From positions 248,001 to 312,000 of the forward strand of contig NZ_VCNL01000004.1 in NCBI RefSeq assembly GCF_007671685.1: a stretch of 64,000 nucleotides of DNA, in the 5' to 3' direction. Below the pieces are notes generated by a model. The model ran no database searches. It saw nothing but the letters and a program-made list of their open reading frames with translations, and was not told the origin of the DNA. The stretch is from Halorubrum salsamenti (GTDB lineage: Archaea > Halobacteriota > Halobacteria > Halobacteriales > Haloferacaceae). This document shows positions 11,826 to 36,594 of this stretch, one piece after another. The position numbers and the translations under genes were made by a program. Position 1 is the stretch's first letter, and the number at the start of each line of letters is the position of its first letter.

Positions 11826-12281
11826 ATGGCAGACGACGACGCCAACGACGCCGACGCCGGCGAAGAACAGGGCGATAGCGCCGCCGGAGCCGAGGGCGAC
11901 GACGGCGAGGAGAAATCCTTCCGCGAGCGCGTCGAGGAGATCCGCGAGCGACGCGAGCAGGAGCGCGAGGAGGGCGACCGGCCCGACCCCGAAGAGATGA
12001 TGGGCGGCGGCGGCCCGCCCGGGATGGGCGGCGGCGGCGGTGGCGGCGGCAACCCCTTCGCGCAGATGATGTCCGGCATGATGGGTGGCGGCGGTCCGGG
12101 CGGCGCGGGCGGCCCGCCCGGGATGGGCGGCGGACCCGGCGGTGCGGGCGGTCGCGGCGAGGAGCGCGGCGATCAGGCCGGCAACGAGGAGCTCGTCCGC
12201 GAGGTGCGCCAGCTCCGCGACGAGGTCCGCGACGCCACCCGCCAGCTCCAGCGTATCGCGCAGGCGCTCGAAGACGACTGA
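11826..12281 (+). CDS. Gly/Met-rich protein with terminal coiled coils (151 aa)
   Basis: This protein has three parts: an acidic N-terminus (about 1-25) leading into a charged helix ERVEEIRERREQEREEG (about 35-55), a Gly/Pro/Met-rich low-complexity centre (about 62-118, with MMSGMMGGGG-type runs), and a C-terminal heptad-rich helix (about 122-151, NEELVREVRQLRDEV). The layout suggests two coiled-coil segments joined by a flexible linker. A CTTTTCGG box precedes the ATG. I recognise no characterised homologue. Confidence 0.7.
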   Translation: MADDDANDADAGEEQGDSAAGAEGDDGEEKSFRERVEEIRERREQEREEGDRPDPEEMMGGGGPPGMGGGGGGGGNPFAQMMSGMMGGGGPGGAGGPPGMGGGPGGAGGRGEERGDQAGNEELVREVRQLRDEVRDATRQLQRIAQALEDD

Positions 12282-12430
12282 TTCGGCGACGGTTCTCTGC
12301 GGTCGCGATTCTCTCCGCTTTTCGACGCGTGGTAGCGTTGCGTTCGCCCGTCGATCGATGACGGGAGTGGATGTTGCAGATCGGTGGCGGTGATGACGTA
12401 TTTAAACGACTGTGAGCGACAGCGACGGTC

Positions 12431-12728
12431 GCTTATAAATGGGTCTGCGGTGGCGCGCGCCCGTGAGCGGCCGACAGGCCGCGAACGGCGCCGCGCGAGG
12501 GAGTCGGCCGGCGCTTATAAGTGCCGGCCGACGAGGCTGGGGAGGCGTGAGGCTGCGGTTGCGGTGCTGGAGGACTCAAAGGGGCAGTCGCGAGGGCGAA
12601 GCACGCCGCAGTAAGCACCGCAGCGAGGGAGCGCTAGCGACTGAGCGAGGAGCACAACAAGGCGCGCGAGCCCTCGCGGCTGGGGCTTTGGAGACCCTCA
12701 CCGCAAAGCCGTCGATCGCTTATAAACA
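12431..12728 (+). ncRNA. Structured element A, possible non-coding RNA (shared with 36331-36594)
   Basis: Bounded by GCTTATAAAT on the left and CGCTTATAAACA on the right. It shares these blocks with element B: GCGGTGGCGCGCGCC (12447-12461), GCGAGGGAG (12495-12503), a 36-nt block identical at 34 positions (12532-12567), GGCTGGGGCTTTG (12678-12690) and the right box. Hairpins: 12467-12472 with 12477-12482 (6 bp), 12504-12512 with 12523-12531 (9 bp), and GCGAGGGC at 12590-12597 with 12670-12677. The region 12568-12677 is absent from element B. Strand is assigned by the left TATA-like box only; the boxes are palindromic, so the opposite strand is possible. Confidence 0.45.
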
Positions 12729-12825
12729 GCCGACAGCAACACCGCGACCCGACTTATAAACGACCAATCAACCGCACCGATATACCTACTCCCGACGTCT
12801 CTCGCGTCCGCGTCGTCCCGATCTG

Positions 12826-12874: not shown

Positions 12875-15800
12875 CTAACACTCCGACCAGCCGCACGACT
12901 CGCACGTCTTGCAGCCCTCGGAGTAGTAGAGATTCATCCCGCCGCACTCGGGACACTCGGGCGACTCGCCCGCCGCGATCAGCTCCTGGGTCGCGTCGTC
13001 CTCGCCGGCCGCGTCGTCCACGGCCTCGGGACCGCCCGCGGTCGGGGCGTCGACCGGAGCGTCGGTCGCGGTTCCGGCGTCGACCGCGCCGCCGTCGGTC
13101 TGGCTCGGAGGCTCGGTGACGCCCTCCACGTCGTCGAGGCTCTGCTGTTGCGGGATCCCCTTGTCGATCTCGTCGTCGAGGTAGCGGCGAAGCGCGGTGC
13201 CGATCGCGTCCGGGATCGACTGGATCTGCTCGCCTTTGTCCCACGCGACCTTCGGGCTCCGGGTGCCCTGCAGCTCGTCGACGATCTCCTCGGGGTCGAC
13301 GCCCGAACGGAGCGCCGTCGAGATGACCTTCGCGAGCGCCTCCGTGAAGGAGTTGGTGTAGCCGCCGGAGTGGCCGATGTTCGCGAACAGCTCGAACGGC
13401 AGCCCGTTCTCGTCCTCGTTGATGGTGACGTACAGCTTGCCGTAGCCCGTCTCGACCCGCTGAGTGACGCCGTTCAGGGAGTCGGGACGCGGACTGCGCT
13501 CGCTGTAGTCGATCCGGGGCTGCTCGCTGGCTTCGAGCAGGTCCGAGATCTCCGCGTCGATCGCCGCCTGCACGTCCTCGTTGTCAAGGAACGCCTCGAT
13601 GCCGCCGAACACCTCGCCGATCTGCTCGACGATCGCCTCGGCCGCCTCGCTCTCGTCGGCGAACTCGGCGTTCTTCGCGCGCGTCGTGAGGACCTGCTTC
13701 GAGCGGGTGCCGTCGCGGTAGACGGTGACGCCCTTCCCGCCGTGGTCGTAGATGTAGCGGTACACCTCTTCCATCTCCTCGGCGGTGGCGTCGTTCGGGA
13801 AGTTACACGTCTTCGAGATGGCGGAGTCGACGCCCTCCTGGCAGGCGCACTGGACCGCCGCGTGCTGCTTGCCCGAGAGGTCGCCGGTGACGACGAACAG
13901 CTCGCCGATGGCGTCCGGAACCGTCTCCAGCCCGTCGACGCCGTCGAACTCGTTCGTCGCCATCTGCTCTTGGGCCTCCTGCTTGACGGCGTCGACGTCG
14001 ACGTCGTTCTCCTCTAAGGTGCGCAGGAAGTAGTCGTCGAACTCGACGAGCATCTCGTCGCCCTGCACGTCGTCGGAGACGTTCTTGTAGTAGGCGACGT
14101 TGTAGATGGGCTCGCAGCCGCCGGTGGTGTTGCCGATCATCGACGTCGTGCCCGTGGGCGCGATCGTCGTCGTGTTGTGGTTGCGGATCGGGAAGCCGTC
14201 CTCCCACTCGTCGGCGTCGAGCCCGGTGTAGTGCTCGAACCACTCGCGGTACTCGGTGGGGTTCGCGTACTTCGACTCCTCCCAGTCGTTGAACGTGCCG
14301 CGCTCCGTCGCGAGCTCGTGAGAGGTCTGCTTCGACGCGTGGTTGATGTGAGTCATCAGCTGCCGGGCGACCTCGTGGCCCGGCTCGGTGCCGTACTGGA
14401 TCCCGAGCTGGATGTACAGCTGTGCCAGCCCCATGACCCCGAGTCCGATCTTCCGCATGTCGCGGACCTTCTGCTCGATCTTCTCGACCGGGAAGTCCGA
14501 CATCGTGACGACGTTCTCGAGGAACCGCGTGCCGTAGTCGATCCGCTCGTCGAACTCCTCGAAGTCGATCGCCTCCTCGAGGAAGGCGTCGATCGCCGCC
14601 TCCTGGGAGTCGTACTCGTCGGCGTGCTCCGCCGACCAGACCCGCCAGTCCGGCGCGTCCTGCGCCGCGAGCGTCGAGAGGTTGATGTGGCCGAGGTTAC
14701 AGGCCTCGTACTCCTCCAACGGCTGTTCTCCGCAGGGGTTTGTTGCAAGAATTCTGTGATCTGGATTTTCTTCAACATCGAACGAATGTTCCTTGTTCAC
14801 CCGTTCGAGGTAGATGACGCCCGGCTCGCCGTTCTCGTGGGCGCCCTCGATCATGTCGTCCCACAGCTCCTGGGCCGGGATCGAGAGCACCTCGCCGACC
14901 TCGACGTGCTCGCCGAGGCCGAACATGTCGTAGATCTCCTTCGTCTCGGGGGTCGCGACGTGCGGCTCCTCGGTGCGCGGGTTGGTGAAGGTGAACTCCT
15001 CGTCGTTGTACAGCGCCTCCATGAAGTCGTCGGTGACGCCGACGCTGATGTTGAAGTTCGACAGGTGACCCTCGACCGCGTTCCGGAGGTGCTCTGGGAC
15101 CTTCCCGTCCTCGTCGATGAGGCCGCGAGCCTCCTCTAAGGCGTCCGCGAAGGAGTTGTGCGTGAAGTCGTCGGGGTCGTTCAGGCGCAGCGAGTGGGCC
15201 AGCGAGACGTCCTTGTTCTTCGAGTGGATGAACTGGATGACGTCGGGGTGCGAGACGCGCATGACGCCCATCTGGGCGCCGCGGCGCGCGCCGCCCTGCG
15301 CGATCGTCTCGCACATCTGGTCGAACGTCCGCATGAACGTGATCGGCCCGGAGGCGATACCTCCCGTCGAGCCGACGGAGTCGCCGTAGGGGCGGAGCTT
15401 CCAGAACGCGTATCCCATGCCGCCGCCGGACTGGAACACCTCGGCCGCCTCCTTGGCGGTCTGGTGGATGTCGGTGATGTCGTCGCCGGGGGAGTCGACG
15501 AAGCAGGCGGAGAGCTGCTGGAGCTCGTCGCCCGCGTTCATCAGCGTCGGCGAGTTCGGCATGAAGGAGAGCTGCTCCATCCCGTCGCGGAACCGGTCCG
15601 CGGTCGCCTCGACGTGCTCGCGCACGCCCTCGGGCAGTTCGGGGACGACGGTGTCGTACGCGAACTTGTTGACGTTGTGCGCGGTGAGCGTCGTCTCCGC
15701 GTCGGCGTCGGCCGTCGTACCCGCGCCGAAGACCTCCTCGGCGAGCTCGTCGCGCCGCGGGTGATCGGGCTTGAGCTGGTCGGGCGTGACCGTGACCTCG

Positions 15801-16033
15801 ACGTCCTGATTCTCGGCTTCGAAGACCGCCTCCGCGAGCGCGACGTTGCGCGCGACGCGGTCGAACAGCTCCTCGGGGTCCTCGATCGCTTCCCCGTCCG
15901 CGTTCTTCCGGAGGTAACGCGCGGGCAGGATGTTGTGGTACGCGTTGGCCGTGAGCCGCTCCTCCATCGTGTCGCCCGTGGTTCGTTTGATCGGCAGTTC
16001 GAGTTCGTCGGCGGCGACGCCGTCGCTGCTCAT
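12875..16033 (-). CDS. nrdJ: Adenosylcobalamin-dependent ribonucleotide reductase (class II)
   Basis: This 1052-residue enzyme reduces ribonucleotides to deoxyribonucleotides using a B12-derived radical. Recognisable parts are the ATP-cone-like/N-terminal region, FMPNSPTLMNAG, SACFVDSPGD, the active-site loop NPCGEQPLEEYEACNLGHINL (Cys434), GTTSMIGNTTGGCEPIYNVAY, and a C-terminal tail with two CxxC pairs (ECPECGG, CKTCESCGW) that shuttles electrons. A low-GC stretch of codons lies immediately before NPCGEQ (14739-14798), unlike the rest of the gene. No intein is present. The poly-U tract downstream suggests a monocistronic message. Confidence 0.96.
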   Translation of the reverse strand: MSSDGVAADELELPIKRTTGDTMEERLTANAYHNILPARYLRKNADGEAIEDPEELFDRVARNVALAEAVFEAENQDVEVTVTPDQLKPDHPRRDELAEEVFGAGTTADADAETTLTAHNVNKFAYDTVVPELPEGVREHVEATADRFRDGMEQLSFMPNSPTLMNAGDELQQLSACFVDSPGDDITDIHQTAKEAAEVFQSGGGMGYAFWKLRPYGDSVGSTGGIASGPITFMRTFDQMCETIAQGGARRGAQMGVMRVSHPDVIQFIHSKNKDVSLAHSLRLNDPDDFTHNSFADALEEARGLIDEDGKVPEHLRNAVEGHLSNFNISVGVTDDFMEALYNDEEFTFTNPRTEEPHVATPETKEIYDMFGLGEHVEVGEVLSIPAQELWDDMIEGAHENGEPGVIYLERVNKEHSFDVEENPDHRILATNPCGEQPLEEYEACNLGHINLSTLAAQDAPDWRVWSAEHADEYDSQEAAIDAFLEEAIDFEEFDERIDYGTRFLENVVTMSDFPVEKIEQKVRDMRKIGLGVMGLAQLYIQLGIQYGTEPGHEVARQLMTHINHASKQTSHELATERGTFNDWEESKYANPTEYREWFEHYTGLDADEWEDGFPIRNHNTTTIAPTGTTSMIGNTTGGCEPIYNVAYYKNVSDDVQGDEMLVEFDDYFLRTLEENDVDVDAVKQEAQEQMATNEFDGVDGLETVPDAIGELFVVTGDLSGKQHAAVQCACQEGVDSAISKTCNFPNDATAEEMEEVYRYIYDHGGKGVTVYRDGTRSKQVLTTRAKNAEFADESEAAEAIVEQIGEVFGGIEAFLDNEDVQAAIDAEISDLLEASEQPRIDYSERSPRPDSLNGVTQRVETGYGKLYVTINEDENGLPFELFANIGHSGGYTNSFTEALAKVISTALRSGVDPEEIVDELQGTRSPKVAWDKGEQIQSIPDAIGTALRRYLDDEIDKGIPQQQSLDDVEGVTEPPSQTDGGAVDAGTATDAPVDAPTAGGPEAVDDAAGEDDATQELIAAGESPECPECGGMNLYYSEGCKTCESCGWSEC

Positions 16034-34927: not shown

Positions 34928-36172
34928 CTACGACAGGGTCCCGACGCCGATGAGTCGCCAGCGCGCGCCGACGCGCCGGTTGATCGCGATCTGTGCGCCC
35001 TCCTCGGCGCAGACCGGCCGTTTGAGGCTGACCTCGCACTCGCCGTCGCGCGCGCTCGTCACCGCGCCGACCGTCGTCGCGGTGCCGACCGTGAGCATCA
35101 GGGGCTCGCCGGTGTTGATGTCCTCGATGTCGCTCTCACCGCTCTCGTCGTCCTCCTTCCCGACGACGCGGTCGAGGAGGTCGACCTGCATCTCGAACTC
35201 GTTGCGCGTCGGCGGGAGCGTCCCGGGCTCGCCGGCGACCTGCCCCGCGAGCGCGTCGCCCTTCGTCAGGCTCGGGTCGAGCCCGGTGCCGACGCCGAGC
35301 AGCCCGCCCGGCCGCGCGGACTCCACGTCGCTGCTGCCGGCCTGTAGCGAGCGCACCGTGGTTTCGAGGGGGCGCCACTCCGTCTGGCCCTCCTCGTCGA
35401 CCTCGCGGCCCGGTCGGATCTCCAGCCCGTCGCCGACGGACAGCTCGCCGCTGACGAGCGAGCCGCCGACGACGCCGCCCTTGAGGTCCGCCGCGGTCGC
35501 GCCCGGACGGTTGATGTCGAACGAGCGGGCCGCGTACATCCGGGCGTTCTCGCCGGGATCGCGATCGGGGGTCGGGATCTCCGTCTCGATCGCGTCGATG
35601 AGGAGGTCCATGTTGACCTCCTGTTGCGCGGAGACGGGGACGATCGGCGCGTCCTCCGCGACGGTGCCCTCGACGAACTCCTGTATCTGCCGGTAGTTGT
35701 CGACGGCGCGGTCGCGGTCGACCAGATCGACCTTGTTCTGCGCGATGACGATGTTCTCGATCCCGATGAGATCGAGCGCCATCAGGTGCTCTTCCGTCTG
35801 CGCCTGCGGGACGTCCTCGGTCGCGCTCACGACGAGCACGGCCCCGTCCATGATCGAGGCGCCGGAGAGCATCGTCGCCATGAGCGTCTCGTGGCCGGGC
35901 GCGTCGACGAACGAGACCGTCCGGATCGGCTCGCTCTCGGAGCCGTCCTCGCACTCCTCGTCGACGGTGTAACACTCGGGCGCGTCGACGCCGGGACAAC
36001 GTCGGAACGTCGCGTCCGCGTACCCCAGCCGGATCGAGATGCCGCGTTTCATTTCCTCGCTGTGCTGGTCGGTCCACGAGCCGGACAACGCCTGCACGAG
36101 CGTCGTCTTCCCGTGGTCGACGTGACCGACGAGACCGATGTTCACCTCCGGTTGTGTGTTGGCTTCAGTCAC
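34928..36172 (-). CDS. eif2g: Translation initiation factor aIF2, gamma subunit
   Basis: This 414-residue GTPase delivers initiator tRNA to the small subunit as part of aIF2. G1 [10 protein letters not shown]3 DAPGHE and G4 NKVD are present, followed by two beta-barrel domains. The zinc-knuckle region keeps three cysteines ([18 protein letters not shown]), fewer than the four of some relatives. The start is GTG 36172, supported by GGAGGT six bases upstream; a TATA-like box (36224-36229) gives a leader of about 28 nt, unlike the leaderless neighbours. It heads an operon with the PIN gene. Confidence 0.96.
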
Positions 36173-36330: not shown

Positions 36331-36594
36331 ATTTATAAATGTGCGACGCGGGGCGGTGGCGCGCGCCTCCGAGCGCCCCGTGGGCGCGAGTAGTGAGGGA
36401 CCGAAGGTCCCTCTGACAGCCGGCGGCGAAGCCGCCGGCGAGGAGCGCGTGCGAGGGAGGCGGCGGACCGGCGCGGCGTCGCCCGCGCCGGTCTGTCCGC
36501 CGAGGCTGGGGAGGCGTGAGGCCGCGGTGGCGGTGCGGGCTGGGGCTTTGTGGGTATTCGGCGTCGAGTCACCGATCTCAACCGCTTATAAACA
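36331..36594 (+). ncRNA. Structured element B, possible non-coding RNA (shared with 12431-12728)
   Basis: It lies in the gene-free 36173-36657 region between two divergent genes. Left box ATTTATAAAT, right box CGCTTATAAACA (36583-36594). Blocks shared with element A: 36353-36367, 36451-36459, 36501-36536, 36538-36550. Hairpins: GCGCCC/GGGCGC (36373-36387), GAGGGACC-GAA-GGTCCCTC (36395-36413), a 9-bp stem with GAA loop (36419-36439), and a 10-bp stem 36467-36476/36483-36492 extended by 36462-36466/36497-36501. The first and last replace element A hairpins at the same places with different paired sequence. Strand is uncertain. Confidence 0.45.

Follow-up and report, generated by a model that had tools for sequence, protein, structure and literature searches.

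A dispersed, mobile and noncoding element family with a strand-specific fold in Halorubrum and other Halobacteria

Two elements, A and B, located in a 64,000-nucleotide stretch of the Halorubrum salsamenti genome (the window, in whose coordinates all positions are given) are members of a dispersed haloarchaeal element family. The family is large, class-wide, mobile and noncoding, and it folds strand-specifically. Judging from sequence, we consider it probable (about 0.68) that this is a mobile family of structured RNA elements whose folded strand is RNA and which function as an RNP. The word RNA in this reading rests on strand-specific covariation.

Elements A and B

The initial annotation had described five ordered blocks common to A and B, and a direct check located each of them where it had been placed. 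GCGGTGGCGCGCGCC lies at 12447 in A and at 36353 in B and is found nowhere else in the window. GCGAGGGAG lies at 12495 and 36451, and again at 12623. The 36-nt block spans 12532-12567 and 36501-36536 with 34 matches, and the set is completed by GGCTGGGGCTTTG (12678 and 36538) and CGCTTATAAACA (12717 and 36583). When A is compared with random 264-base stretches of the window, no 36-mer matches at more than 23 of 36 positions, and the 34/36 match is therefore not a product of chance; in blastn of A against B, the 36-nt block alone gives 1e-13. The hairpins are also as described: h1 reads GCGGCC-GACA-GGCCGC in A and GCGCCC-CGT-GGGCGC in B, and h2 of each element is a perfect or near-perfect hairpin. 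The extent of 12431-12728 assigned to A is too small, as sister copies align across approximately 12352-12800. The elements had been called TATA-bounded, and TTATAA does stand at the bounds, but another TTATAA lies inside the h2 loop of A. The boundary AT boxes keep fixed offsets in many copies.

A is a complete copy. The gap that holds it is bounded by an ORF at 11826-12281 (plus strand) and a gene at 12875-16033 (minus strand) that we take, from its translation, to be a class II ribonucleotide reductase. B is degenerate. It is without the 5' half of the right domain, with no CTCAAAGGGGC, and has an extra double-hairpin insert (approximately 36391-36442) that is also found in other copies; truncation is frequent among copies, B included. 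The gap around B is divergent, with a gene at 34928-36172 (minus strand), presumably translation initiation factor 2 gamma, on one side and an ORF from 36658 (plus strand) on the other. These are the two family copies of the window, and no third strong match was found there by either of two covariance models, R1 (64 right domains) and R2 (74 left domains), both built from sequence-based alignments. The features of A and B are as follows.

12351..12368, plus strand: A, left inner terminal inverted repeat TCGATCGATGACGGGAGT (family form TTGATCGATAGCGGGAGT); left limit of identity to four sisters, termini aligned across copies
12399..12406, plus strand: A, AT box 1 TATTTAAA, about -50 from GTGGCG; positional profile across copies
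12432..12439, plus strand: A, AT box 2 CTTATAAA, about -17 from GTGGCG, the left TATA bound of the initial annotation; positional profile
12450..12552, plus strand: A, left domain with P1/h1 stem, GCGAGGGAG, h2 hairpin and conserved core; R2 96.8 bits, fold z -4.89, covariation
12467..12482, plus strand: A, h1 hairpin GCGGCC/GGCCGC; columns 20-25 covary with 40-45 in alignment A2
12503..12532, plus strand: A, h2 hairpin GTCGGCCGGCGCTTATAAGTGCCGGCCGAC; anchor-based test across copies
12533..12552, plus strand: A, nearly invariant core block GAGGCTGGGGAGGCGTGAGG; kept in Halorubrum, elsewhere as GAGGYTGGGGAGGYGTGAGG
12573..12691, plus strand: A, right domain, an elongated rod-like stem that has a GGG/GGG internal loop and GA/GA mismatches at intervals; R1 136.2 bits, 30 pairs, 23 changed on both sides
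12720..12725, plus strand: A, right TTATAA box 1; in many copies at +38/+41 after GGGGCTTTGG
12754..12759, plus strand: A, right TTATAA box 2; recurs at +69/+72 after GGGGCTTTGG
12788..12794, plus strand: A, right inner terminal inverted repeat ACTCCCG; identity of the sisters ends here
36332..36339, plus strand: B, left AT box TTTATAAA; positional profile
36353..36390, plus strand: B, P1 5' strand and h1 hairpin (h1 36373-36387); direct check
36391..36442, plus strand: B, double-hairpin insert, GAGGGACC/GGTCCCTC at 36395-36413 and GCCGGCGGC/GCCGCCGGC at 36419-36439; in a subset of copies, either orientation
36443..36501, plus strand: B, P1 3' strand, GCGAGGGAG and h2 hairpin (36462-36501); direct check
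36502..36521, plus strand: B, core block GAGGCTGGGGAGGCGTGAGG; sequence
36538..36550, plus strand: B, right-domain 3' strand remnant GGCTGGGGCTTTG, 5' partner missing; no R1 match here
36586..36591, plus strand: B, right TTATAA box; positional profile

Range, movement and turnover of the family

R1 gives 79 matches and R2 96 in the own genome, where blastn with B as query returns 85 matching pieces. Copies are present in all 34 same-genus relatives searched. Counts of R1 matches (E<=1e-6) in individual Halorubrum genomes range from 10 to at least 110. Across the class, R1 (E<=1e-5, with E-values to be read as rough) matches 178 of 242 genomes and 59 of 73 genera. The distant matches inspected, in Halorussus, Halosimplex, Haloparvum and Halobellus, are convincing; they keep the general layout and the core, the latter as GAGGYTGGGGAGGYGTGAGG. 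Natrinema and Halobaculum retain the right domain with the outer stem replaced and the inner motifs unchanged (63-83 bits), and in other families, among them Halorussus, Natrinema and Halobaculum, the architecture is the same with wholly different stem sequences. In L213, L237, L200 and L219 (Halorussus, Haloparvum, Halosimplex) the distal right domain is swapped for another stem with strands like CCCCTATC/GATATGTC. The viral contigs and phage records searched held no family copies. Plasmid records held few, a single Halorubrum plasmid having a copy, and the family seems depleted on plasmid-like replicons.

Mobility is visible in the four sister copies of A, which are 98-99% identical and lie at unrelated sites. 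Their identity stops at inner inverted repeats, CGGGAGT/ACTCCCG, which in several copies are longer (TTGATCGATAG/CTATCGATCAA); both inner repeats are present in 22 of the 87 own-genome copies and a single one in 12. Some copies also carry transposon ends that lie outside the inner repeats. One of them, L057, measures 588 bp and has a perfect 17-bp GGCTCTGTTGAAATCCT at each end, so that the family-type terminal inverted repeats characteristic of IS6-type MITEs are present. Its flanking 8-mers, TTATAACT/TTATAATT, match at 7/8 positions; those of L052 and L054 match at 6/8 each, and those of other copies more poorly. The outer ends GGCTCTGTTGAAATCCT are degenerate or absent in most copies, A included. 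Since near-identical copies share only the part within the inner repeats, the outer ends may not drive movement.

Over 56-72 bp, the ends of L057 are 77-84% identical to those of own-genome elements with unrelated cargo. Five such elements (L315, L328, L330, L336 and L344, on contigs C1, C16 and C17) are short, end in GGCTCTGTTGAAATCCT and carry unrelated cargo, in some cases small ORFs. They apparently form a cargo-carrying element family moved in trans. Perfect 8-bp flanking repeats are found around L315, L328 and L330, which have the same ends and other cargo. Such transposon ends are dense on C17 (323 kb), a contig with only 2 right-domain matches, compared with well over 20 for C1 (949 kb). 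IS6-family elements, including Halobacterial ones, have terminal repeats that start with GG, a CTGTT motif and 8-bp target duplications (PMC7986276, PMC6807381). The outer ends of the present family share the GG start and the CTGTT motif, and some copies have 8-bp duplication-like flanks; unlike IS6 insertion sequences, the family has no internal transposase, and none matching is found in this genome. PF13610 detected no IS6 transposase in this draft genome, and no IS6-type transposase is named in the four annotated plasmid regions around outer ends, one of which has other transposase genes close by.

Small mobile repeats of haloarchaea have been described before. The MITEs of Haloquadratum walsbyi are short and multi-copy, have terminal inverted repeats and lack a transposase, and one haloarchaeal element tends to insert into another (PMC3119063). 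The present family resembles them in these traits. Unlike MITEs, which are defined by their ends only (PMC3119063), it has an interior with a conserved two-domain fold and strand-specific covariation that extends over most of the class. The double-hairpin module seen in B (GAGGGACC/GGTCCCTC and GCCGGCGGC/GCCGCCGGC) also occurs in L002, L004, L007, L008 and L011, and inverted in L016, L020, L023 and L033, as if it were a small mobile repeat itself. PATEs are palindrome-bearing, IS605-related elements without inverted repeats or target duplications (PMC3119063), and a 489 bp PATE has been reported as expressed in a study of a Halorubrum lacusprofundi virus and its host (PMC10544981). Compared with PATEs by description, the family is similar in size, noncoding nature, haloarchaeal hosts and palindromic stretches, and unlike them carries two sets of inverted repeats, inner and outer, with duplication-like flanks on at least some copies. 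The inner and outer inverted repeats of type I copies argue against classification as a PATE.

Comparison of fixed sites points to turnover. Among other Halorubrum species, site A is without an element, carries one in the same orientation, or carries an inverted one (L139, L142); orthologs have similar junctions and unrelated interiors. No clean empty site was found at A. The gaps of element-free species are rearranged or replaced, and for this reason an exact target duplication is unreadable for A. Site B holds a copy in many species, with the orientation kept and the stems strongly divergent, and lacks one in others. Orthologous copies are seldom nearest relatives of each other, the exception being L140/L141; 51 of 84 copies have their best match within their own genome, other genomes having been sampled in part. 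The orthologous-site comparison, with interiors that differ and a fold that is kept, implies overwriting or recombination of interiors under a persisting fold, which accounts for the block-replaced look of the A and B hairpins. The initial annotation had them replaced and still paired, which is correct, but the differences between A and B are largely wholesale stem replacement and not point-by-point compensation between two genes. In L013, two copies (575-821 and, on the minus strand, approximately 1383-1700) flank one small gene in opposite orientations. The layout recurs in L067, and the presence of the pair in two species suggests that some insertion sites are old.

A fold carried by one strand

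The right domain forms an extended rod, CAAAG-GGG-CAG..., whose short stems are split by conserved GA/GA mismatches and which also contains an internal loop rich in G. In the MAFFT sequence alignment of this domain, 98.0% of cells are paired against 85.8% after shuffling, both sides have changed in 23 of 30 pairs, and cells with a double change number 228 against 53.5, values that 0 of 500 shuffles reach. The left domain is paired at 97.5% against 86.5%. P1 and h1 were judged on alignment, and the alignments were not fitted to structure; h2 is of variable length and is not resolved by alignment, so it was tested by fixed anchors, by which its main class is paired at 94% against 75% in shuffles. 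Single copies have RNA fold z values of -4.2 to -4.9 against dinucleotide shuffles. The shuffle controls ignore kinship of the sequences, whereas the sliding and strand tests do not depend on kinship in the same way, and sliding the right-domain partners by 1-3 columns lowers pairing to 28-41%. More than 100 copies were examined, and their stems covary; the initial annotation would have been refuted had no other covarying copies turned up, which is clearly not the case.

The fold belongs to one strand. On the plus strand, G-U exceeds A-C by 85 to 9 in the right domain and by 65 to 8 in the left, and 24 columns have G-U ahead against 4 with A-C ahead. A structure picked on the plus strand could favor G-U, and the minus strand was therefore folded independently. 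The consensus energy is -41.7 for the plus and -21.0 for the minus strand, whose own best right-domain structure has 7 G-U and 43 A-C. A double-stranded palindrome cannot yield such asymmetry, which requires a single folding strand, be it RNA or DNA. Further evidence in this direction comes from the conserved GA/GA mismatches that separate covarying 2-bp stems. With covariation far above shuffled and slid controls and a strand-specific fold, the proposal of a structured RNA family is supported. The statement that no named RNA matches also holds, since Rfam 15 gave nothing credible at gathering or permissive thresholds. No tRNA or tmRNA was detected in the window, a literature search returned neither a description of the family nor expression data for it, and Weinberg 2010 names no motif from haloarchaea in its main text. 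A protein-coding gene was considered and rejected: taken modulo 3, domain lengths give every residue, which means that the ORFs spanning A and B are not conserved frames, and no reading frame is kept across homologues. In many copies (e.g. L066, L071, L172, L203, L219) a 3' tail GGCTGGGGCTTTGGAGGTGTTCACCG... occurs in tandem in one to three units, each of which can pair with a lone 5' strand CAAAGGGGCAG.

The main rival, which we judge unlikely, is that the folded strand is single-stranded DNA that serves transposition or replication of IS200/IS605 or rolling-circle type, the RNA being incidental. GA/GA tandem mismatches are stable in DNA as well, and strand-specific folding would be expected for DNA too. 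G-U or G-T pairs are kept at many positions, which is better tolerated in RNA. The family is mobile, and haloarchaea possess the palindrome-bearing, IS605-related PATEs, but, unlike IS605 and PATEs (PMC3119063), the family in its mobile form is bounded by terminal inverted repeats with 8-bp duplication-like flanks.

It is highly improbable that the family is selfish double-stranded MITE-like DNA in which palindromes are perfected by template switching and shuffled by gene conversion, with no selected fold. Palindrome perfection is strand-symmetric, and both the 85 to 9 ratio of G-U to A-C and the twofold greater stability of the plus-strand fold speak against it. Repair of palindromes would also erase the GA/GA mismatches, yet the 2-bp stems between them covary. 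Such DNA would account for the frequent wholesale swapping of stems, the unrelated interiors at orthologous sites, the insertion of the double hairpin in either orientation, and an excess of convergent gaps with no orientation bias, as for tolerated insertion.

Genomic context and a possible RNA function

The flanks of the folded part contain phased AT boxes: TTTAAA at about -50 and TTATAA at about -18 of GTGGCG, and TTATAA at about +41 and +72 after GGGGCTTTGG. TTTAAA occupies -51..-48 from GTGGCG in most type I copies. A TATTTAAA-like box lies at -75..-35 in 51 of 57 type I copies (0/57 in a control window) and is scarce in other copies (21/172). Box 2, at -34..-4, is found in 57/57 type I and 107/172 other copies, with controls of 4 and 6. 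The -50 box would be compatible with a transcription start shortly before P1, while the more widely kept -18 box would place the start within P1 by usual archaeal TATA spacing. The boxes may be promoters, protein sites or transposase sites.

The least credible rival takes the copies for REP/BIME-like sequences, dispersed by transposition, that act in cis on mRNA as terminator, 3' stabiliser or leader. It draws on the intergenic position of copies near gene ends and on their preference for convergent gaps (44/105 copies against 111/577 in the background, counts that are approximate because genes were predicted by codon-position GC), but orientation to flanking genes is unbiased (++ 21, -- 23), there is no T-run, and site A has both orientations, by species.

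Under the mobile structured-RNA reading, the functional part would be a structured RNA of approximately 250-270 nt made off the plus strand. The left domain comprises P1 with h1, the hairpin h2 and the nearly invariant core GAGGYTGGGGAGGYGTGAGG. AT boxes in the left flank of a copy would drive its transcription, and retention of the fold may reflect a need for the RNA to bind protein or act as an RNP, which could serve either spread of the element or the host in trans. Copies would spread as cargo between transposon ends, with the transposase acting in trans, and resident copies may be overwritten or inverted through recombination between terminal repeats.

Among mobile RNAs, the omega/reRNAs of TnpB/IscB and the HEARO RNAs are likewise structured noncoding RNAs spread with mobile elements. 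Here the ORFs that flank A and B do not look like nucleases in translation, and conserved boxes and repeats, in place of a variable guide, adjoin the structured part at both ends. The family is SINE-like in being dispersed, multi-copy, noncoding and structured with promoter-like boxes; unlike eukaryotic SINEs, it gives no hint of retroposition, as it has no tail and no reverse transcriptase is seen, and its ends are DNA-transposon-like. A bolder reading, which we find possible if doubtful, is that these are SINE-like interspersed noncoding RNA genes of archaea, spread over most of Halobacteria with one or few copies in many genera and about 100 in Halorubrum, which produce an abundant two-domain RNA that acts in trans with a protein.

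Transposon-dispersed elements and structured RNA families are each known, and their combination at such scale in archaea is new. A class-wide structured element with up to approximately 100 copies per genome has stood uncatalogued, probably hidden from catalogues by repeat masking and spurious gene calls. Its natural copies constitute a very large set of compensated variants, and structure and partner are directly testable. If the fold is instead one of single-stranded DNA, it would represent an unusual transposon architecture. Transcription, if it occurs, would place the family with the most copy-rich noncoding RNAs of archaea and would connect transposon biology to RNA function.
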